In this document: positions 24,148 through 39,540 of the stretch, piece after piece
How the letters are laid out: every line of letters begins with the position of its first letter
How positions within the stretch are numbered: position 1 is the stretch's first letter
Source: Candidatus Poribacteria bacterium
Lineage (GTDB): Bacteria; Poribacteria; WGA-4E; PCPOR2b
Direction: 5' to 3'
DNA: 46,705 bases
Assembly: GCA_022822785.1 (NCBI GenBank)
Contig: JAJEAL010000055.1
Coordinates: 1 to 46,705 of the forward strand
Made by a program: the position numbers and the translations under genes
Notes under the pieces: model-generated
What the model was told of the DNA's origin: nothing
Databases searched by the model: none
The model's input: only the letters and a program-made list of their open reading frames with translations

Positions 24148-24936
24148 ATGAAACAGATCTTAACAATTGCTGGTTCAGATTCAGGCGGCGGGGCAGGGAT
24201 CCAAGCCGACCTCAAATCCATCCACGCCAACGGCGGTTTTGGGTTATCTGTCATCACGTCAGTTACGGCACAGAATACACGCCAAGTGACCCACGCCTTC
24301 GATCTGCCAACCGATATCATTGACGCGCAGATCGACGCTATCTTCTCTGACTTTGATGTTGCAGCTCTCAAGACAGGGATGCTATCTTCAGCCGAAATTG
24401 TGAACGCTGTGGCAAAAAAACTGCGCGAATATTCGCCAAGTAATATTGTGATTGATCCCGTGATGGTTTCCAAAAGTAAGTACCCTCTGCTCAAACCAGA
24501 TGCTATTGAGTGTTTGCAAGCGGAGCTACTACCGCTGGCGACGGTCGTCATGCCCAATATCCATGAAGCTGAACTCCTCGCCGAATGCGAAATCCGGACT
24601 CTTGATGATGCAAAAACCGCAGCCAAAGTCATTCAAGGATATGGATGCCAAAGTGTGCTAGTCAAAGGGGGACACCTCTCAGGGGAACAATCGATTGATG
24701 TCCTGTACGCCGATGGAACTTTTACCCTCTTTGAGGCGGAGCGGATTGAAACGAAAAACACACATGGCACCGGCTGCACGTACTCCGCAGCAATCGCTAC
24801 GTACCTTGGACTTGGAAAGGCCCTTGTCGTTGCCGTTCAGTCCGCCAAGGATTACATTACTAACGCTATCCGCTACTCCCTTGACATCGGGGGAGGACAC
24901 GGACCCACCAACCACTTCTACTTCTTGAACAGGTAA
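24148..24936 (+). CDS. thiD: Hydroxymethylpyrimidine/phosphomethylpyrimidine kinase
   Basis: Phosphorylates HMP and HMP-phosphate to supply ThiE. It is 262 residues of the ribokinase fold: start ILTIAGSDSGGGAGIQADLK, AALKTGML, VIDPVMVSKS, VVMPNIHEAELL and the anion-hole/catalytic motif NTHGTGCTYSAAIATYL near 208-224. The chain ends HGPTNHFYFLN. It lies 13 bp after thiE, in the same operon. No TPP riboswitch was recognised upstream of thiE or thiD. Confidence 0.9.
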   Translation: MKQILTIAGSDSGGGAGIQADLKSIHANGGFGLSVITSVTAQNTRQVTHAFDLPTDIIDAQIDAIFSDFDVAALKTGMLSSAEIVNAVAKKLREYSPSNIVIDPVMVSKSKYPLLKPDAIECLQAELLPLATVVMPNIHEAELLAECEIRTLDDAKTAAKVIQGYGCQSVLVKGGHLSGEQSIDVLYADGTFTLFEAERIETKNTHGTGCTYSAAIATYLGLGKALVVAVQSAKDYITNAIRYSLDIGGGHGPTNHFYFLNR

Positions 24937-24947
24937 CACTTGAGGAG

Positions 24948-25118
24948 ATGGCAGAATTGAATCAACCCAAACTTTTTGAGGGGCTCAAACCCAATACCAT
25001 CGTCACTGTTGCAGGAGTTGGCTACCGCGATGGCATACCCACTAAGGATGCAGATATCGGTTGGCCCATGGGTGTGGTGCGGCGACCCGATGGCGACCTA
25101 AGCCGCGCCTACAATTAA
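24948..25118 (+). pseudogene. NHL-repeat-like protein, 56-residue N-terminal fragment
   Basis: ATG 24948 has GAGGAG immediately upstream. The product, MAELNQPKLFEGLKPNTIVT and on through VAGVGYRDGIP to GWPMGVVRRPDGDL, looks like the first blade of an NHL/SMP-30-type propeller and then stops (SRAYN). Such proteins normally run to 300 residues or more. The break directly after RRPDGDL suggests truncation by deletion. Confidence 0.5.
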
Positions 25119-25151
25119 GGTCGGATTTTATTCGGCTACGAAAATTAGGTC

Positions 25152-25180
25152 TTGACAAAACGTTGAGCCTCGCGTATCAT
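25152..25180 (+). promoter_or_regulatory. Sigma70-type promoter of the tetR gene
   Basis: TTGACA (25152-25157), a 17-bp spacer and TATCAT (25175-25180), followed at once by an operator-like site, 40 bp before ATG 25221. Confidence 0.65.
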
Positions 25181-25181
25181 A

Positions 25182-25201
25182 TTGTACGAACATTCAATCA
25201 G
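25182..25201 (+). promoter_or_regulatory. Putative TetR operator 1
   Basis: TTGTACGAACATTCAATCAG matches the site at 25809-25828 in TTGN3GAANANTCAATCA. It begins 1 bp after the -10 box, so a bound repressor would block the tetR promoter. The dyad is imperfect, and assignment to the adjacent TetR protein is inference. Confidence 0.5.
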
Positions 25202-25220
25202 GATAAGCTGATAAAGTCAA

Positions 25221-25790
25221 ATGAATCAAATTAAAGATAAACGTACAGCAATTTTAGAAGCCGCGTTAAAGCTAATTTCGGAAAATGGCTTTCACGGAAC
25301 GGCTATGTCGAAGGTGGCTAAAGAAGCCGGTGTGAGTGCAGGCATCATTTATCACTACTTCGACAGCAAGGATGATTTGATTGACGACCTTTACAGAACA
25401 GTCAAACGCAAATCTGCCGATACCGTTCTTGAAAGTTATGACCAGAGTAGACCTTTGAGGGCGCAAATCCGCCAGATATGGGAAGATATCTTTAAGTATT
25501 GCCTCCGGCATCCCCAGGAGGTAATCTTTATGGAACAGTATAGTACCTCCCCCTATTATCGCGCTGAGGTCGAGGCGGATGTCAGCCAGTATTTTACTCC
25601 CATAATTGCCTGTTTCGAGCGTGCCCGGCAGGAAATGATCATCAAAGATTTGCCGCAATCAGTTATAGCCACACTAACCTTGAATGTTGCGAGTTCGCTG
25701 GCTCAAAAACAAGCAGCAGGGCTCATTAATTTGACGGATGAGTTAGTTGAGCGGATCATTGATGCCTTGTGGGAGGCAATTAGGGAGTAG
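25221..25790 (+). CDS. TetR-family transcriptional repressor
   Basis: A 189-residue regulator. The N-terminal HTH is AILEAALKLISENGFHGTAM then VAKEAGVSAGIIYHYFDSKD (about 10-55), the standard TetR pattern. The C-terminal half is a helical ligand domain of unknown specificity. Two similar operator-like sites flank the gene (25182-25201 and 25809-25828), which suggests it represses itself and the downstream oxidoreductase genes. A small electrophile or lipophilic compound is a reasonable inducer in view of those genes, but this is a guess. Confidence 0.87.
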   Translation: MNQIKDKRTAILEAALKLISENGFHGTAMSKVAKEAGVSAGIIYHYFDSKDDLIDDLYRTVKRKSADTVLESYDQSRPLRAQIRQIWEDIFKYCLRHPQEVIFMEQYSTSPYYRAEVEADVSQYFTPIIACFERARQEMIIKDLPQSVIATLTLNVASSLAQKQAAGLINLTDELVERIIDALWEAIRE

Positions 25791-25808
25791 TTTTTTTTAT
25801 CTATGATA

Positions 25809-25828
25809 TTGAATGAATAGTCAATCAA
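25809..25828 (+). promoter_or_regulatory. Putative TetR operator 2
   Basis: TTGAATGAATAGTCAATCAA is a 20-bp dyad with 16 of 20 positions symmetric. It lies 18 bp after the tetR stop and before the aldo/keto reductase fragment. It shares its right half with operator 1. Confidence 0.6.
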
Positions 25829-25850
25829 TAACGTGAGGAAAATTCAATCA

Positions 25851-26045
25851 TGAGATATTCAGTGCTAGGAAACAGAGGACTTTATGTGTCGAAACTTACG
25901 TTGGGGACGATGACTTTTGACTAAAAGGAGGGATCTTCGCGCAGTTGGTCGGCGGTACCGGTCAGGAATTGGACACCAAAATGGTAGACCTCTTCATCGA
26001 AGCGGGGTCAATCTGTTTGATATGGCCAACATATATGCCTCTGGC
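25851..26045 (+). pseudogene. Aldo/keto reductase, 5' remnant with stop and frameshift
   Basis: ATG 25851 (after GTGAGGA) reads MRYSVLGNRGLYVSKLTLGT then MTFD and a TAA stop; this is the standard AKR opening. After the stop, one frame reads FAQLVGGTGQELDTKMVDLF and IEAG, and after a frame change VNLFDMANIYASG, the next conserved AKR block. The gene therefore carries a nonsense change and a frameshift and is cut after about 65 codons. It directly precedes an intact AKR. Confidence 0.65.
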
Positions 26046-26072
26046 CATCAGAATTGCCGACGGAGGAGAAAA

Positions 26073-27056
26073 ATGAATACTATGTCAACAAATAAAAACA
26101 TCAAATTACGGCAATTAGGTCAAACTGATATTTACATCTCACCCATCGGGTTAGGCTGCTGGCAATTCTCAGAGGGCAAAGGCGGTGCAGCTGGAACATG
26201 GGCGCCAATTTCCATAGAAGAAACAAATGGCATCGTGCAAGCGGTATTGAATGGTGGCATCAATTGGTTTGATACTGCTGAACTTTACGGGTGGGGACGT
26301 TCCGAGCGTGCAATCGCACGAGCACTTAAAAAATCAGGGAAAATCGATCAAGAGGTAATTATCGCTACCAAATGGAATCCCATAGGACGAACGGCATGGT
26401 CAATTACCAGAACAATCGGTAAGCGCCAGGAATGCTTGAATCCCTATACCATTGACCTCTATCAGATTCATGCCCCCTTCGGGTTTACTACTCGCAGATC
26501 AGAGATGAACGCAATGGCTGATTTGGTGGAATCCGAGAAAATCCGCTCGGTTGGAATCAGTAACTATAGTGCCCGACAGATGCGGCAAGCTCATGAAGTA
26601 TTACGCTCTCGAGGGTTGAGGCTGGTTTCCAATCAGGTCAGGTTCAACTTACTTGATCGCAGCATTGAGTCTAATGGCATTCTTGATATAGCCAAGGAAC
26701 TGGGGGTTACGATTATTGCTTACTCTCCCCTTGGCTTGGGCCTGCTAACCGGCAAGTTCCACAAGAATCCAGAATTGCTCAGTAACCGTCGGTGGCTCCG
26801 CCGGTACCAACTGCGCCGTAAAATCGAATCAAGCCGTGAATTGGTCAACACACTCGAAGAGATCGCTCAAGCGCACGGCGTCACCGCCACTCAGGTAGCC
26901 CTGAACTGGTTGATCAACTTTCACGGGGATACGGTCGTTGCCATCCCGGGGGCAACAAAAGTGCGTCATGCCGAACAGAATGTCGGTGCAATGACCTTCA
27001 CCTTATCCAATACAGAACTCTCGCAAATTGATAATCTGTCAAAGCAGTTCATGTAG
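26073..27056 (+). CDS. Aldo/keto reductase
   Basis: A 327-residue NAD(P)H-dependent reductase of aldehydes and ketones. The catalytic tetrad is visible: Asp and Tyr in NWFDTAELYG, Lys in VIIATKWNP and His in DLYQIHAPFG. SVGISNYS, SNQVRFNLLDR, IIAYSPLGLGLLTGKF and VAIPGATKVRHAEQN complete the barrel and cofactor site. GGAGGAG sits just upstream of ATG 26073; the open frame before it (from 25917) reads only the AKR remnant. It belongs to the TetR-linked oxidoreductase cluster. Confidence 0.88.
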   Translation: MNTMSTNKNIKLRQLGQTDIYISPIGLGCWQFSEGKGGAAGTWAPISIEETNGIVQAVLNGGINWFDTAELYGWGRSERAIARALKKSGKIDQEVIIATKWNPIGRTAWSITRTIGKRQECLNPYTIDLYQIHAPFGFTTRRSEMNAMADLVESEKIRSVGISNYSARQMRQAHEVLRSRGLRLVSNQVRFNLLDRSIESNGILDIAKELGVTIIAYSPLGLGLLTGKFHKNPELLSNRRWLRRYQLRRKIESSRELVNTLEEIAQAHGVTATQVALNWLINFHGDTVVAIPGATKVRHAEQNVGAMTFTLSNTELSQIDNLSKQFM

Positions 27057-27067
27057 AGGAAAAAACA

Positions 27068-27130
27068 ATGCCAACTAAAATGGAGCACCTGAAAGGTAAA
27101 GTTGTCGTTATACAACAAAATTTTGTCTAA
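27068..27130 (+). pseudogene. SDR-family dehydrogenase, 20-residue N-terminal remnant
   Basis: ATG 27068, 11 nt after the AKR stop, reads MPTKMEHLKGKVVVIQQNFV. MxxLKGKVVVI is the usual first strand of a short-chain dehydrogenase, normally followed by TGASSGIG; here it ends at once. It is another 5' gene stump in the same cluster, 15 nt before the exported SDR fusion. Confidence 0.45.
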
Positions 27131-27145
27131 TCATAAGGAGATGAA

Positions 27146-28561
27146 ATGATGAGAATTAAAATGGAATTAGCATGGATTGTCCTCTGTATTTTAATGCTTG
27201 GGGTTAATACGATCCAAGCCCAGGACAATGACCAAAAAGTAGTCTTAATCACCGGAACTGCTTCAGGAATTGGTAAAGCTACCGCAGAATACCTCATTCA
27301 AAAAGGTCACATCGTTTATGGTGGAGACATTCAGTTTGAAGAGAATAAATATCTGGACAAAATCGGTGGGCATTCACTCGATATGGATGTTACAAAAGTC
27401 GATATGGTACAGGCAGGTGTTGACAAAATTATTGAAGAGCAAGGTAGGATAGATGTGCTCGTAAACAATGCAGGTTTTGGTCTATATGCACCTGTAGAAG
27501 AAACGACCGATGAGGATGCTAGGTATCAGTTTGAGGTTAACTTCTTTGGCGTTGCTAATGTCACAAAAGCTGTTCTTCCACATATGCGGAAGGCAAAATC
27601 TGGAAAGATAATCAACATTTCATCGATGGGAGGTAAAATTTATATGCCGCTCGGAGCATGGTATCATGCGACCAAGCATGCTATAGAAGGATGGAGTGAT
27701 TGTTTACGTCTTGAACTGAAAGCATTTAATATTGATGTGGTCATCATTGAACCGGGTGCTATTAACACTAACTTCGGCAATGTGACTGCTCGATACATGG
27801 AAAAATATATTGAGGGCAGCAATTACAAACATATGCTGGAGCCATTTCAGGATATGATGTCAATCCTTGATGATCCTGAAGCAGTGAGACGTATGTCAGC
27901 AGACCCAATTGTGATAGCCAAGGTCATCAATGAAGCCATCAATGCAAAAAATCCTAAAACAAGATATGTCAAAGGTCCAATGGCACGAATGGCAATTTCG
28001 TACCGCCAACTCTTTGGCGATAGAGCTTTTGATGATTTTATATTGCAAGCATTTTACCCTGAAACGAGACAAAGTCTGAATATAGGGACAAATACCTTGG
28101 CTTATCTCAATGATGGTTATGACATAAACTTAACCTACAATATCGGCCTCTGGAGATTTGGATTTTCCTATACAGACATGGATTTTTCCACTGATGATGA
28201 CTTTGAAGATAAAAGAACAGGTATCGGTTTTTATACCGGGGCAGGTTTACTTGTTGATCAAACAGGTATAAACTTTGGTTTAGGATTCGATTATTTTAGT
28301 GAAAATAAAGTCAATGATGTAAATGATGATGGAATAATCCAGCAAAGCCTTGAAAAGGATCTATATCGAGTTTATTTCAGAACAGCATGGCTAAGAGAAA
28401 TCGTGAAAATTTCTAATATAGGTCTCTATGTCGAGCCAGGTCTAGATGTTGCTTATGGATTCGGAGATGAAGATCTGACTTTTGATAGCGGTAAAGTTTA
28501 TGAAGAAGTTGGATTTAAATTTTCCCCATTCGTAAAGTTCGGAACCAAAATAAGGTTTTAA
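27146..28561 (+). CDS. Exported SDR-family dehydrogenase fused to a probable outer-membrane beta-barrel
   Basis: A 471-residue protein. Residues 1-26 look like a signal peptide (basic MMRIK, then AWIVLCILMLGV and an AQA-like cleavage site). Residues about 31-300 are a classical SDR: TGTASGIG (36-43), NNAG (107-110), S160 and YHATK (Y173, K177), so the catalytic set is complete. From about 305 the sequence changes to alternating polar/apolar strands with many glycines and aromatics (GLWRFGFSYTDMDF, GIGFYTGAGLL, GINFGLGFDYF) and ends FGTKIRF, a C-terminal Phe as in outer-membrane barrels. AAGGAG precedes the start. The gene is visibly more A+T-rich than its neighbours, which suggests transfer. 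A dinucleotide-dependent enzyme outside the cytoplasm would be odd; the signal peptide and barrel may instead indicate a chimera. Confidence 0.75.
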   Translation: MMRIKMELAWIVLCILMLGVNTIQAQDNDQKVVLITGTASGIGKATAEYLIQKGHIVYGGDIQFEENKYLDKIGGHSLDMDVTKVDMVQAGVDKIIEEQGRIDVLVNNAGFGLYAPVEETTDEDARYQFEVNFFGVANVTKAVLPHMRKAKSGKIINISSMGGKIYMPLGAWYHATKHAIEGWSDCLRLELKAFNIDVVIIEPGAINTNFGNVTARYMEKYIEGSNYKHMLEPFQDMMSILDDPEAVRRMSADPIVIAKVINEAINAKNPKTRYVKGPMARMAISYRQLFGDRAFDDFILQAFYPETRQSLNIGTNTLAYLNDGYDINLTYNIGLWRFGFSYTDMDFSTDDDFEDKRTGIGFYTGAGLLVDQTGINFGLGFDYFSENKVNDVNDDGIIQQSLEKDLYRVYFRTAWLREIVKISNIGLYVEPGLDVAYGFGDEDLTFDSGKVYEEVGFKFSPFVKFGTKIRF

Positions 28562-28635
28562 AATTGTCGATGAACTTCCTGCGATGTCGGGGCGGATTGA
28601 TGAACTTTATTTGAAGTTCCAACGCTGATAATTTC

Positions 28636-31600
28636 TCAAAATCTTTGCGACAGGAGTAAGATGGGGACAAAATTACGTTCCTCCCGCAACGCACGCGCAA
28701 CTTCAAACCCAAGGACACGGGCTGGATCGCCGAGGAAGAGAGACAACCCAACTCCAACCGATGTGTTGAAACGATCGAACCGAGGGGCTTCATCGTAGAA
28801 CCAAGCGTCCCCTGTATCCAAGAAAGCTGCTATTACACCGAGAGGTCCTTCGCTGTCATCCAGATATCTGGTTTTCGCAAAATAAATCCGGTACTCCATG
28901 TTGAAGAGGAGAATATTATCCCCGGCGAACTCTTTGGAATCGTAACCGCGCAAGGCGTTGATTCCGCCTAGGTAAAGGAGACGTTGTCTAGGAAGTGGTC
29001 CATCAGAGAAGCCGCCTATCAGACGAAAGTTCAGATGGTGGTTGTTGAACAGTTGATTGTAGCGAACAACCGTAAAGCGATAGAGGTTAAAATCGAAGTC
29101 GCTGTTAAGCCTTTTATCCGCATATTCGACGGAAAAATTCCCTCGCCAACCGTGTTTGGTACGGTAATCATTCTGCATTTGATGCGCTGGCGCCTTCAAG
29201 CTATTAAGATTATAACCCACAGTTACGCTACGCAAGTGTCCCTCATCAATTCGCAGGTTACCCCGCTTTGGGGTGTTGCTATTCAACAAACTCCAGTCGG
29301 TTGACTTAAATAAGATTTCGTGATCTTCATCGGTGAATTCCAGCGTGATGTTCATCGATCGTGTTAACTCACCCTTTACTCGAGCCTGATACCCCTTGCG
29401 CTGATAGTAATCCAAGGAGACGGACCCAAGGAAGAAGGCACCAAGGAATTCGCCACCTTTGGACCATCTAGCATAGCGATTGGCATCTGTTTGCTGATAA
29501 ACACTTCCGCCGATAGTCAGAGCGTGGCGGTCGAACCAACTGTTTTCAGCTCCTAGTTGATAGTTCCAAATTTTACTTGACAGTCCGTTACTGACCTGCC
29601 CGTAAATTTGCGCGTTTGCTTCTATGGTCGAAAGGACTCCACCGCCGCCTAAAATTAAGCCGTGTACACGGTTGAAGTCGAGGATTGGGCGCCAATTCAC
29701 CTTGATTCGGGATCGCTCCTCAATCTCAATAGCAAGCACATTCTGGTCCCCGTCCCGCTTCACCCCCCAACTTTTGATGCTTTTGAAGTAGGGGTTAGTT
29801 TCACTGAGCCGCGTCCGCATCTGATTGAGGCGCGTCGTGCCAATCTGTTTGCTGTAGGCGTCTCCCTGCTTGAAACCGAGTGTATCAACCAACTCCGGGC
29901 GTTTAATTCGGCGGTTACCAGAAAAACGAAGGTCGTCCAAATGCCCTTCGTCAACCTCAATCAACAGATGAGTGTCGGAGAATCGGTGGGTGACTTGTGC
30001 AAGTTCGTAACCGTGATGTCTATAAAGATTTTCAATCAGTTGGCATTTGGTGTTCAGGCTTTCGATTGAAGTGCGTTCTCGCTTCAACCCGAATGCTGCG
30101 CGCAGAAATGGAGATATAAGGTATCTGTTTCCTTGTACACTAAGACTGTCGACAACACTCGTTGGTGCTTCGGTCAAATGAATACGCAAAGTCACTTTAA
30201 AGATAGAAGTTAGCGGCGTCTCATCACCTTCCTCCACCTCCTCTCTAATAGCGTCGCTCGTTTCTATGTGGACATCGCTAAACCAATCGAGCGCTTCAAA
30301 TTCACGACTAAGCCATGATAGTTCATCAATGGAAATAATATCCCCCGACTGAAAGGGGATTTTCTCAAGGACTGCCGATATCGGAATATCGCGGTTTCCC
30401 TCAACCTCGATCGCGACAAGCGAGAACTGTTCCATAAATTCAAAGCTCTGTGCGGACTCGGTCTGCCCCGTCTCTGTCAAACGTATGATACCCATCCGAT
30501 CAGGCCAGTGGGGCCACCAAGGTTGTATTTTGTCATAAGTAGGTGACCAGTAACTGTACTCGACACCCAGCTTTGACGAGGGGTCGGTGACAGTGTCCTG
30601 CGTTTTGCGATGTAGATTAAATCGCCAGTCCCGCTCGTTCCGCAAGGCGGAATCCCGATGTATCGGGACGGGAATCCCCGATGAATCGGGACTTTCGGAG
30701 GTGGAAGGCTCAAGTGCATCGCGGGGCAGCGCAACTTCTACACTCCAAAAAGTCGGCGTAATCTGCGTCTTAACTTCGGCACGCGAATCCCAATCAGGCT
30801 TTGCCATCTTTTCATAAGCAGGTCCAAGGTCGGAATCCAACGGATAATCCGCTTCGATGTGCTGATCGAAAACCGTACCGATCGGGTTGATAACGAGGTG
30901 ATGATAAGTCGGGGTTTTCGGATTGGGATCTATGAGAATCTCTAATGTATCATCAAGCCAAACTGCTGAATCTGGATTGGTTTGTGTGGTTTGAACCCGT
31001 TTCATCTGCGGGTCATATACCCTCGCACCGATATAGAGATACTGTTCATCCCATAGGAGAAATCCCTGTGTCGGTTTGTTTGGTTGTGTAATTGCGTCTA
31101 CCCGGTAGAATGGGGAAAGCGGCACTGACTTTGCCCAAGCTTTCTCGAATAAGTCGCCATCTATTACCGGTTGCACGGACGCGCGCGGAACGTCAACCGT
31201 TGGTGGGGGAGGTAGGTCATCTTCGGCGTAAGGATCATCGACTTCTGTTTCATCGTCGTCGCTTTTGGACTCGGTGGAAACGGATTGGGAGGGGCGAATC
31301 GTAATTCCCTGACCTGCGGTCATTTGAATTAGGGGACCACCATCGTTGATCCAGCCGTGGACGACATCGCCCACATAGGCGGTTTCGAGTGCTACCGGCA
31401 AGTCAATGGTAATAGCGCGTTGGTCCTCGTTTTCAACCTGTAGCTCGATGTCAGCTGGGTAGCTTTCTGGCAAGCGCAGCGAAATTGCTCCATCATACGC
31501 CTTGAGGTCCATTTTTGCCGGTATCTCGTCCAAAACTACCAAATCTATCGAACCGGACTGCGTCTCAAATGTGTTGGCACCACCGGTTAATAGGATCCGT

Positions 31601-32265
31601 CCATAGATTCGTCCTTCTTGGGTGTTGACTTGATAGGCGCCCATCACTTTATCAAGATGAACATTACCGGCTGTTGTTGTCAAAACCATGTCGCCGCGGA
31701 TGCCGTGTACACGAATATCTCCTAATTTTGTTTTGACTTTGAGGGTTAGGTCAGGAGGTGTTTCAATGAAGCAGTTCAAATGGGTCAGCTTGGTATATGG
31801 ATCGGGAGGTTCGGGGAGATGTGGGGTTAACAGCAAGATATCGTCTTTGGTGGAAGTTCCCAGCTGCACGGCGTCGAGATAGGTTTGGACGATTCCTTCA
31901 CTGCTACCTGCCCCACGTTTTTCAAGTTTGACGTTGATATCTTCAGCCGTGGTCGCACTCACCTCCACACTCCCTGCCAGAGGCAGCGTCAGTTCAAGAC
32001 CATATACATCGTCATAGCTAATCTGTTGTTCGGAAGTTGAACGATACTCTGAGATACTTTGTCCAGACGTAGGTGCGCCTAGTTCGGCTCCGATTTCATT
32101 GCTCGATAGGAGGTACTCAGCTTGCGAAATGTCAGTGTACACAGTGCCGTTTCGAGCGTCCTCAACAGAGTGGGACCGATGCTGCGTGTGCCCGCTCCCC
32201 GCCTGTATAACGCTATAGAGCAAGCAGATGTGTAAAATGAGAGTGAATTTTGTGATGGTACTCAT
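28636..32265 (-). CDS. Omp85/BamA-like outer-membrane protein with adhesin-like and CBM9-like N-terminal domains
   Basis: A 1209-residue protein. Residues 1-24 are a signal peptide (FTLILHICLLYSVIQAGSG). About 90-325 is a DUF4097-like beta-helical repeat region (GNVHLDKVMGAYQVNTQEGR, SGSIDLVVLDEI). About 355-590 is a CBM9/DOMON-like sugar-binding domain (PVIDGDLFEKAWAKSVPLSP, LWDEQYLYIGARVYD, DDTLEILIDPNP). About 610-860 has POTRA-like units (VAIEVEGNRDIPISAVLEKI, LSVQGNRYLISPFLRAAFGL, LRFSGNRRIKRPELVDTLGF). The rest is an Omp85 barrel with the loop-6 motif NALRGYDSKEF near 1108, and ends FVPILLLSQRF. It is probably a cell-surface transporter or assembly factor. The start ATG has GAGGTG about 10 nt upstream. 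Confidence 0.8.
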   Translation of the reverse strand: MSTITKFTLILHICLLYSVIQAGSGHTQHRSHSVEDARNGTVYTDISQAEYLLSSNEIGAELGAPTSGQSISEYRSTSEQQISYDDVYGLELTLPLAGSVEVSATTAEDINVKLEKRGAGSSEGIVQTYLDAVQLGTSTKDDILLLTPHLPEPPDPYTKLTHLNCFIETPPDLTLKVKTKLGDIRVHGIRGDMVLTTTAGNVHLDKVMGAYQVNTQEGRIYGRILLTGGANTFETQSGSIDLVVLDEIPAKMDLKAYDGAISLRLPESYPADIELQVENEDQRAITIDLPVALETAYVGDVVHGWINDGGPLIQMTAGQGITIRPSQSVSTESKSDDDETEVDDPYAEDDLPPPPTVDVPRASVQPVIDGDLFEKAWAKSVPLSPFYRVDAITQPNKPTQGFLLWDEQYLYIGARVYDPQMKRVQTTQTNPDSAVWLDDTLEILIDPNPKTPTYHHLVINPIGTVFDQHIEADYPLDSDLGPAYEKMAKPDWDSRAEVKTQITPTFWSVEVALPRDALEPSTSESPDSSGIPVPIHRDSALRNERDWRFNLHRKTQDTVTDPSSKLGVEYSYWSPTYDKIQPWWPHWPDRMGIIRLTETGQTESAQSFEFMEQFSLVAIEVEGNRDIPISAVLEKIPFQSGDIISIDELSWLSREFEALDWFSDVHIETSDAIREEVEEGDETPLTSIFKVTLRIHLTEAPTSVVDSLSVQGNRYLISPFLRAAFGLKRERTSIESLNTKCQLIENLYRHHGYELAQVTHRFSDTHLLIEVDEGHLDDLRFSGNRRIKRPELVDTLGFKQGDAYSKQIGTTRLNQMRTRLSETNPYFKSIKSWGVKRDGDQNVLAIEIEERSRIKVNWRPILDFNRVHGLILGGGGVLSTIEANAQIYGQVSNGLSSKIWNYQLGAENSWFDRHALTIGGSVYQQTDANRYARWSKGGEFLGAFFLGSVSLDYYQRKGYQARVKGELTRSMNITLEFTDEDHEILFKSTDWSLLNSNTPKRGNLRIDEGHLRSVTVGYNLNSLKAPAHQMQNDYRTKHGWRGNFSVEYADKRLNSDFDFNLYRFTVVRYNQLFNNHHLNFRLIGGFSDGPLPRQRLLYLGGINALRGYDSKEFAGDNILLFNMEYRIYFAKTRYLDDSEGPLGVIAAFLDTGDAWFYDEAPRFDRFNTSVGVGLSLFLGDPARVLGFEVARALREERNFVPILLLSQRF
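30653..30691. repeat. Double palindrome inserted inside the Omp85-fusion gene
   Basis: Two hairpins, TCCCGAT-GT-ATCGGGA (30653-30668) and CCCGAT-GA-ATCGGG (30677-30690), lie in tandem within the CBM9-like coding region. In frame they encode the low-complexity SPDSSGIPVPIHRDS near residues 524-538, which looks unlike the surrounding domain. A half copy, TCCCGATTCATCG, lies at about 32662. Confidence 0.65.
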
Positions 32266-36539: not shown

Positions 36540-37457
36540 TCAATCTGTCTCCCGTTTCATCCGTCCCCAAAGCGTTATCCACTGCCCTACATCTGATACT
36601 GCCAACTTTGTACCAAACCAGGAAGGATTATCTCCTCCCTCAACCAATAATCTGATATTTTCTCCATCTTTATCTATAATAAAAATACCCTCTATATCCT
36701 CTTGGCGTGATACAAAGGCAATTTGTTGCCCGTCGGGCGACCATTCGGGAGATCTTCCATTAGCGAGCCGCTTGGCATTCGCGCCATCTGCCTCCATCAG
36801 ATAAACGGCATTACCTCCATCTCGGTTTGACCAGAAGGCGATCCACTGTCCATCAGGAGACCAAGCTGGATACAAATCTTGCCAAGGGTGGTCCGTTAAC
36901 TGTTGAAGGTTATTCCCTGTGATATCAACGACGTAAATATCATTCCCCACGCCAGGAAGCCTAATCGTAAAGGCTAACTTGTTGCCGTCAGGAGCCCAGG
37001 CTGCCATGCCAGTGGCACCGTGTGGACGTCCCCAGCGAATTTCTTTTCGCTTCAGTCCATCAATATCCACGAGTAACAGAGATCCAGCGGGAGTCTGAGC
37101 AATCCACTGTCCATCGGGAGATATAGCTGGTCTACCATTTTCAACTGCAACGCGTTTGATATTTTTCCCGGCGAGATCCATTGTATAAATGCTAAAAACA
37201 CCATCGCGATCTGAACAGAAGGCTATACGGCGTCCATCCGGCAACCAAACGGGCCATTTATCCACTGCAGGATGGTGTGTTAATCGCCGGAGGTTTTTAC
37301 TATCATCATTAATAATGTAAATCTCTTCATTTCCTTCCCGGTTCAATGTGAAAACAATTTTTCCTCTTTCGGCACTTGCCATTTGGTTTGGGTGAATCAG
37401 TAAAAGACCCCCGACGAATACAATAACAAACAATAAACTGCTCTTCACATTATTCAT
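36540..37457 (-). CDS. TolB-like beta-propeller protein, tandem copy 3
   Basis: A 305-residue exported protein. The signal peptide (SLLFVIVFVGGLLLIHPNQM, then ASAE) is followed by PD40/WD40-like blades with the usual SPDGQWIAFWSNRDG and APDGNKLAFTI phrases, about six in number. Such propellers bind proteins or glycans in the periplasm. It is the last of three tandem paralogues (961 bp start-to-start from the previous one). The function is unknown; it lacks the TolB N-terminal domain, so it is not TolB itself. Confidence 0.78.
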   Translation of the reverse strand: MNNVKSSLLFVIVFVGGLLLIHPNQMASAERGKIVFTLNREGNEEIYIINDDSKNLRRLTHHPAVDKWPVWLPDGRRIAFCSDRDGVFSIYTMDLAGKNIKRVAVENGRPAISPDGQWIAQTPAGSLLLVDIDGLKRKEIRWGRPHGATGMAAWAPDGNKLAFTIRLPGVGNDIYVVDITGNNLQQLTDHPWQDLYPAWSPDGQWIAFWSNRDGGNAVYLMEADGANAKRLANGRSPEWSPDGQQIAFVSRQEDIEGIFIIDKDGENIRLLVEGGDNPSWFGTKLAVSDVGQWITLWGRMKRETD

Positions 37458-37485
37458 GAGTGTCGTTAATCCTCCTGACCCAATT

Positions 37486-38418
37486 TCATTGGATTCGTTC
37501 TCCGCGTTTCATCCGTCCCCAAAGCGTTATCCACTTCCCTGCACCTGATACCGCCAACTTTGAACCGAACCAAGAAGGCTGGTCTCCACCTTCAACCAAG
37601 AGTCTGATATTTCCACCATCCCTATCCATAATAAAAATGCCTGGAACGCCTCCTCGACGTGAGACAAAGGCAATCTGTTGACTATCGGGCGACCATTCTG
37701 GTCTTCTTCCATTAGCAAGCCACTTGGCATTCGCTCCATCTGTCTCCATCAAATAAATGGCCATATCTCCATCTCGGTCTGACTGGAATACAATCCACTG
37801 TCCATCAGGAGACCAAGCGGGATACACATCTTGTGCAGGATGGTCTGTCAACTGTTGAAGGTTTTCGCCCGTGATATCAACGATATAAATATCATTCAAC
37901 ACCCCAGGGATATTCCTCATCCCAGGGATCTGGATTGTGAAGGCTAATCTTTTGCTGTCAGGAGACCAAGCAGCCATTCCGGTGACACCTTGCGGACCAT
38001 CCCAGTGAATCTCTCTCTGCTTCAATCCATCAATATCCACAAGTAACAGAATCTCATCGGGAGCCAAAGCAATCCACTGTCCATTGGGAGAGACAGCAGG
38101 TCTACCAATTGCATCTACAGTTCGTTTTATATTTTTTCCAGCAAGGTCCATTGTATAAATGCTAAAAACGCCATCGCGATTTGAACAGAAGACTATATGG
38201 CGTCCATCTGGTAGCCAAACAGGATAGGAATCATGTGCCAGATGGTCTGTTAATTGCCGGAGGTTTTCACCATTATCATCAATGATGTAAATCCCTCCAT
38301 TTCCGTCATGGAGCAATGTGAAAACAATTTTTCCTCTTTCGGCACTTGCCATTTGGTTTGGGTGAATCAGTGAAAAACTCCCGACAAATGCAATAATAAA
38401 TAATAAATCGCTTTTCAT
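37486..38418 (-). CDS. TolB-like beta-propeller protein, tandem copy 2
   Basis: A 310-residue paralogue of the genes on each side. The signal peptide ends near HPNQMASAE, and blades include SPDGQWIVFQSDRDG and SPDSKRLAFTI. It carries a small insertion (GMRNIPGVLNDIYIVD) not seen in the others. A GTG at 38430 is also open, but ATG 38418 sits at the same place relative to its ribosome site as in copy 1 (GTGGCAATCATG against GAGGACAATCATG). It lies 28 bp after copy 1 and is probably co-transcribed. Confidence 0.77.
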   Translation of the reverse strand: MKSDLLFIIAFVGSFSLIHPNQMASAERGKIVFTLLHDGNGGIYIIDDNGENLRQLTDHLAHDSYPVWLPDGRHIVFCSNRDGVFSIYTMDLAGKNIKRTVDAIGRPAVSPNGQWIALAPDEILLLVDIDGLKQREIHWDGPQGVTGMAAWSPDSKRLAFTIQIPGMRNIPGVLNDIYIVDITGENLQQLTDHPAQDVYPAWSPDGQWIVFQSDRDGDMAIYLMETDGANAKWLANGRRPEWSPDSQQIAFVSRRGGVPGIFIMDRDGGNIRLLVEGGDQPSWFGSKLAVSGAGKWITLWGRMKRGERIQ

Positions 38419-38446
38419 GATTGCCACCAATCCTTCTGACGCAATT

Positions 38447-39391
38447 TCACTGGATTGGTTCTCCCCGTTTCATCCGCCCCCAAAACGTTATCCGCTTCCC
38501 TATATCTGATACTGCCAACTTTGAACCGAACCATGCAGGTTGATTCCCACCTTCAACCAATAGTTTGATATTTTCGCCCTCCGTATCCATAATAAAGATA
38601 CCTTCTAGGTCGTCTTGGCGTGATACAAAGGCGATTTGTTGACCATCGGGGGCCCACTCGGGAGATCTTCCATTAGCAAGTCGCTTAGGATTCGCTCCAT
38701 CTGCATCCATCAGATAAACAGCATTGCCTCCCTCCCGATTTGACCAGAAGGCAATCCACTGTCCATCAGGAGACCAAGCAGGATATAAATCTTGTGCAGG
38801 ATCCTCCGTTAATTGTCGAAGGTTTTCTCCGTTGATATCAACGACATAGATATCATTCAATACCTCAGGGGTTCGGATTGTGAAGGCTAACCTTTTGCCA
38901 TCAGGAGACCAATCAATCATTCCGTAGAAACCTACCGGTGCTCGCAGTAAAATTTCTCTTTGCATCAACCCTTCAATGTCTACGAGTAATAGTGAGGGAT
39001 TACGCTGCAATCGTCCGCGCACATGGCTTACAGCTATCCATTGCCCAGCCGGAGATATAACAGGTATATCGCCTGAATCCACAATTCGTTTTATATTTTT
39101 CCCGGCGAGATCCATTGTATAAATGCTAAAATCCCTATCGCGATTTGAAGAAAACGCTATATGGCGTCCATCCGGTAGCCAAGCAGGATAAAAGTCTACT
39201 TCAGGATGGTCTGTTAATCGCCGAAGGTTTTTACCATTATCATCAATGATATAAATCTCTATATTTCCACCACGATCTAATGTAAAGGCAATCTTTCCAC
39301 TTTTAGCGCTTACCATTTGCTTTGGGTGAATCAGCAAAAGGCTTCCAACGAATACAATCGCTAGTAGTAAGCTCCTGTTTATGCGTTTCAT
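38447..39391 (-). CDS. TolB-like beta-propeller protein, tandem copy 1
   Basis: A 314-residue exported propeller. The signal peptide (NRSLLLAIVFVGSLLLIHPK) is followed by blades such as LPDGRHIAFSSNRD, SPDGQWIAFWSNREG and APDGQQIAFVSRQD. A short insertion, HVRGRLQRNPS, distinguishes it from copies 2 and 3. The frame opens at 39424, but ATG 39391 preceded by GAGGAC gives a normal signal peptide and is chosen. It is the first gene of the three-copy array. Confidence 0.77.
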   Translation of the reverse strand: MKRINRSLLLAIVFVGSLLLIHPKQMVSAKSGKIAFTLDRGGNIEIYIIDDNGKNLRRLTDHPEVDFYPAWLPDGRHIAFSSNRDRDFSIYTMDLAGKNIKRIVDSGDIPVISPAGQWIAVSHVRGRLQRNPSLLLVDIEGLMQREILLRAPVGFYGMIDWSPDGKRLAFTIRTPEVLNDIYVVDINGENLRQLTEDPAQDLYPAWSPDGQWIAFWSNREGGNAVYLMDADGANPKRLANGRSPEWAPDGQQIAFVSRQDDLEGIFIMDTEGENIKLLVEGGNQPAWFGSKLAVSDIGKRITFWGRMKRGEPIQ

Positions 39392-39540
39392 GATTGTCCT
39401 CAATGTTTTCAAGTCTAGGGCCATTCAGTCCTTCTGTCGGAGGGATTTCCGAATCCCGACTTCCTACTTGCTAGGTTCTGTTGATATTTCATCACAACCC
39501 AGATAATCAACGGGTGTGCACAGACACATGATCCCCGTAA

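Follow-up and report, generated by a model that had tools for sequence, protein, structure and literature searches.

SDRs are typically cytoplasmic, single-domain proteins of ~270 residues, and the periplasm is not a compartment in which NAD(P)H would be expected. OmpX/OmpW/OmpA-type proteins are small outer-membrane barrels of 8 strands, and autotransporters (type V secretion) combine an enzyme with a C-terminal barrel, a 12-strand translocator. Glucose-fructose oxidoreductase of Zymomonas is a periplasmic Tat substrate exported with bound NADP (reference 142 listed in PMC6708511).

The window, i.e. the whole stretch of 46,705 nucleotides that was analysed, contains a gene (hereafter the fusion gene) in which a predicted signal peptide, a complete SDR and a barrel-like tail follow one another in a single reading frame. 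Its features are the following:

27135..27140, + strand: Shine-Dalgarno sequence AAGGAG, 5 bases 5' of the fusion gene ATG (from the sequence)
27146-28561, + strand: open reading frame of the fusion gene, 471 codons, ATG start
27146..27220, + strand: predicted signal peptide of Sec type, residues 1-25, MMRIKMELAWIVLCILMLGVNTIQA with cleavage before Q (rule-based)
27227..28057, + strand: complete classical SDR, residues 28-304 (NF004826, Pfam, alignment), with the motifs TGTASGIG (36-43), NNAG (107-110), N132, S160, Y173 and K177
28058..28558, + strand: orphan barrel-like tail, residues 305-471, with C-terminal KFGTKIRF (recognized by its pattern; without relatives)

The fusion resembles PRK06182/NF004826 SDRs in its complete domain, its motifs and the C-terminal end of the SDR, but these relatives have neither signal nor tail, and after strand beta-2 Arg is found in them in place of the Asp-Ile-Gln of the fusion. 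Its tail is similar to OmpX/OmpW/OmpA-type barrels in length, alternating strands and terminal Phe; however, there is no detectable sequence relationship, and an enzyme of 277 residues lies ahead of the first strand. A signal, an N-terminal enzyme and a barrel-like C-terminal part are shared with autotransporters, but the tail (167 residues) is too short for a 12-strand translocator and gave no Pfam autotransporter match. As a nucleotide-cofactor oxidoreductase predicted to be periplasmic, the fusion is also comparable to the Zymomonas enzyme, which uses Tat, whereas the fusion has no twin-arginine motif. We know of no barrel in that enzyme.

The open reading frame is genuine and has a good ribosome-binding site. 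The first-pass annotation had proposed an export signal, and by rule-based criteria one is present: a basic n-region, a hydrophobic core (LAWIVLCILML; best 11-residue mean hydropathy 3.06, residues 8-18) and a cleavage motif, IQA followed by Q. A search of this segment revealed no twin-arginine motif and the signal is therefore assigned to the Sec type. No in-frame ATG, GTG or TTG was found near residue 28, the usual start of the relatives, and the internal ATG (residue 17) lacks, as judged by eye, a ribosome site. A signal-like stretch was looked for at the SDR-tail junction and none was found; thus, the N-terminal signal would serve the tail too.

The catalytic Ser, Tyr and Lys and the cofactor motif of the SDR had been reported as intact, and this was borne out. 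Residues 29-302 align with positions 3-272 of the 274 of NF004826 (PRK06182) at 344.3 bits, for a curated cut-off of 305 bits, and the SDR part matches Pfam adh_short at 1.4e-48. In an alignment with five relatives, all of which start at about residue 28, stop at about residue 304 (fusion numbering) and are devoid of signal and tail, the cofactor loop and NNAG are kept and the four catalytic residues (N132, S160, Y173 and K177) are invariant. The protein WP_261891819 of Acaryochloris marina is 55% identical to the SDR of the fusion (alignment A1). Asp at position 61 of the fusion corresponds to a neutral residue plus a following Arg in the relatives; according to general SDR rules, this swap suggests a change of preference from NADP to NAD. 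The preserved catalytic residues of this single copy speak against prolonged decay. With a signal peptide and a 167-residue tail added, the fusion does not match the typical SDR form: it carries an SDR domain but is no typical member of the family. Identity with KdsR (3-ketodihydrosphingosine reductase, NF049977) was rejected at 242.7 bits, below the 400-bit curated cut-off; relatives whose matches start at query positions 12-19 proved to be ordinary SDRs without N-terminal signal; and plasmid alignments running past residue 304 (e.g. Acinetobacter, to 314) cross a stop codon into unrelated sequence.

The tail begins where ordinary SDRs end, is ~167 residues long and has Phe as its last residue. 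About 8 alternating strands can be distinguished by eye, Gly plus aromatic residues make up 29% and the terminal Phe is accompanied by alternating hydrophobic residues. G+C by codon position (0.46/0.32/0.27) and three-base periodicity throughout fit a coding sequence. A home-made alternating-strand score, to be taken as support rather than proof since its scale was set by hand and its threshold chosen among four, gave 7 non-overlapping strands at threshold 4. This value was reached by 3 of 500 composition-preserving shuffles of the tail and by none of 467 control windows (168 residues each, taken from 32 proteins or protein parts of the window, SDR part included); the Omp85-like barrel next door scored slightly lower, with 6 strands at the same threshold. 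The single-sequence AlphaFold model of the tail is all-beta with long antiparallel strands but has very low confidence (pLDDT 35, the same value as for a model of the whole fusion protein) and gives no usable fold. No relatives of the tail were detected in 84 genomes of its own phylum (E 0.01), in the plasmid collection (up to E 10) or among PDB sequences, and nothing in Pfam was above cut-off. Because the tail has no homologue anywhere searched, its fold is unproven. Thus, from the earlier description of a barrel-like tail of ~170 residues ending in Phe, the length, the Phe and the strand pattern stand, but no family, sequence or fold match of any significance goes with them. The pattern (strands, terminal Phe and the very-low-confidence model) supports a putative outer-membrane beta-barrel. 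The absence of a barrel family match, together with a model unusable for fold assignment, would also suit an SDR, periplasmic or anchored in a membrane, that ends in a soluble all-beta domain; we consider this very unlikely given the alternating hydrophobic pattern, the hydrophobic residues alternating up to the C-terminal Phe and the Gly plus aromatic content.

Several matches of the tail were set aside. Weak matches within the phylum (E up to 10) were, for those inspected, unrelated soluble-looking fragments (one threonine synthase-like) and were judged to be due to chance. Porin_4 (E 0.007 with the whole protein) is sub-threshold and vanishes with the tail alone, and DUF6850 (E 0.04) is below cut-off; a shuffled tail gave E 0.012. 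Foldseek matches of the tail model (the best being actin-capping proteins and phage coats, not outer-membrane proteins) are meaningless for a low-confidence model.

When the whole fusion protein was compared with plasmids, 0 of 5000 records covered 80% of it, and neither the plasmid collection nor the 84 phylum genomes had a record joining SDR and tail. A whole-protein scan of genome contigs returned one distant SDR, without tail. In the collections searched the fusion is found in one genome only; the literature search for such SDR-barrel fusions gave nothing relevant. The domain combination is genuine and so far unique and lies in foreign DNA that looks mobile; at this stage it is a singular chimera, short of a demonstrated new system. 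A chimera had been one of two options offered at first pass, and it agrees with the data: relatives stop where the tail starts, both halves occur together in no other record and the foreign block described below is absent from congeners. We favour, with a probability of roughly 0.5, a horizontally acquired chimera: a complete PRK06182-type SDR placed, in frame, after the signal peptide and before the barrel of an apparent small (~8-strand) outer-membrane protein.

In congeners, thiD and an Omp85-like gene are close neighbours. They are 186 bp apart in G001; in G002, G003 and G005 a 715-codon NHL-repeat gene lies between them, and G005 has further genes beside it, with a 6.1 kb insertion at this place. 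In the window, the NHL-repeat gene is truncated at ~25101 and congener homology is back at ~28615, both flanks being conserved and syntenic with congeners. The ~3.5 kb in between, in which the fusion gene is last, contain:

25102..28614, no strand: foreign block, replacing most of the NHL-repeat gene kept in three congeners (congener comparison)
25152-25180: promoter-like TTGACA-17-TATCAT, 5' of tetR (the regional promoter count is at chance level)
25221..25790, + strand: TetR-family regulator
25850..26045, + strand: aldo/keto reductase fragment, frameshifted and truncated, MRYSVLGNRGLYVSKLTLGTMTFD / KGGIFAQLVGGTGQELDTKMVDLFIEAG / VNLFDMANIYASG (three frames, by eye)
26073..27056, + strand: intact aldo/keto reductase (Pfam PF00248, E 7.5e-63, profile positions 1-290 of 291)
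27068..27112, + strand: stub of an SDR gene start, MPTKMEHLKGKVVVI (SDR identity by eye; stop at 27128-27130)

Between thiD and the Omp85-like gene, at 24936-28636 and in the equivalent position in G001, G002, G003 and G005, there is either nothing, the NHL-repeat gene, this gene and others, or the foreign block; the region looks like a hot spot of gene gain and loss. No transposase or integrase gene is apparent within the block, and no terminator-like site was found 3' of the fusion gene up to 28900. A sequence in this 3' region, IVDELPAMSGRIDELYLKFQR, had been considered as the remnant of an interrupted SDR and was dropped as its end is native flank. Within its own genome the DNA of the block is not matched elsewhere, and the matches in 57 related genomes are all short or distant, the best (320 bp at 70% identity) being inside an ordinary SDR of G057. 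By eye, a near-palindrome (TTGAATGA-ATAG-TCAATCAA, 25808-25832) lies 3' of tetR and a similar sequence (ATTCAATCA, ~25190-25200) 5' of it; both are possible TetR operators.

The state of the neighbouring genes bears on whether the fusion is a non-functional by-product, patched together from gene fragments by illegitimate recombination, its reading frame open by chance or recent and without selected role. Next to a frameshifted reductase fragment, an SDR stub and the loss of most of the NHL-repeat gene, and for an architecture without relatives that occurs in a single genome, such an origin is conceivable; yet 471 stop-free codons with every SDR catalytic residue, a good ribosome site and a codon-position composition kept through the tail make it rather unlikely. 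Since the neighbouring genes of the block are partly decayed, the fusion gene could likewise be in the process of being lost.

The deviant base composition noticed at first pass was confirmed. G+C is 0.384 (38%) in the fusion gene for a window mean of 0.50, the lowest value among equal-length windows outside its neighbourhood being 0.431, and two-breakpoint segmentation placed the low-G+C segment at 26991-28675, approximately the fusion gene itself. GC3 is 0.35 in the SDR and 0.27 in the tail, as against 0.50-0.60 in the native set (eight other window genes), with no significant difference between SDR and tail (Fisher P = 0.11). A sharp drop in composition is also what would be seen if foreign metagenome DNA had been joined into the contig during assembly, possibly with a further false join inside the open reading frame, and the genome does consist of 147 contigs with 3.24% estimated contamination, the fusion and its tail occurring nowhere else in the collections searched. 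However, this would take two false joins between syntenic flanks and, to create the fusion, another one at 28060, where SDR and tail are equal in composition and the frame is unbroken; moreover, the site is naturally variable, other insertions being present in congeners (6.1 kb in G005). We found no homologue sharing both halves; at 28060, however, nothing points positively to misassembly, and an assembly error is unlikely.

Returning to the acquired chimera, both halves have the same low G+C and the fusion was thus probably older than its arrival, i.e. formed before transfer. The simplest history is that of one low-GC donor already carrying the fusion. Bacteroidota are a plausible donor group. 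The earlier term 'recent chimera' is consequently retained for the chimera, whereas recency is not clearly supported, both halves being foreign in composition. The exact fit of the SDR between the signal peptide and the tail suggests that an SDR domain was inserted in the gene of a small outer-membrane protein or, alternatively, that an SDR was supplied with both a signal and a barrel.

If expressed, the fusion protein would be exported through Sec, its C-terminal beta-signal would be recognized by BAM and the tail would be inserted in the outer membrane. The SDR would be on the periplasmic side, because an even-stranded barrel with a periplasmic C-terminus has its N-terminus there too. It might act as an enzyme on NAD(H) that is scavenged or has been retained; a folded domain with little turnover is more likely. 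The expected absence of NAD(P)H from the periplasm and the lack of a Tat motif for export of a cofactor-loaded enzyme are points against reading it as an exported, working SDR: it would cross the membrane unfolded and cofactor-free, which renders activity outside the cytoplasm doubtful. A new role at the outer membrane, the other option offered at first pass, is possible, given the predicted signal and a tail with a barrel-like pattern. Its stronger form, an outer-membrane-tethered, periplasm-facing SDR active on periplasmic or export-retained NAD(H) and representing a new redox architecture, at the surface or in the periplasm, spread by horizontal transfer, appears decidedly improbable, and a function of the fusion is unproven. 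Were the fusion expressed and its tail a barrel, a nicotinamide-dependent enzyme fold would be present in a compartment thought to be cofactor-free. At present a single copy in one draft genome, with an architecture that has no relative in the collections searched, it would provide a clear test of the ability of SDRs exported by Sec to fold and function beyond the cytoplasm.

Phytanoyl-CoA dioxygenases, sulfatases and TolB-like propellers among the genes suggest a host genome of Poribacteria type. The neighbouring Omp85-like gene (28636-32265, - strand) encodes a 1209-residue protein made of a DUF4097 region, a CBM9-like domain, POTRA and an Omp85 barrel, an unusual Omp85 architecture which is kept in most congeners. 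Further along, at 36540-39424 (- strand), three closely similar genes for TolB-like propellers with signal peptides stand in tandem and represent a recent duplication.
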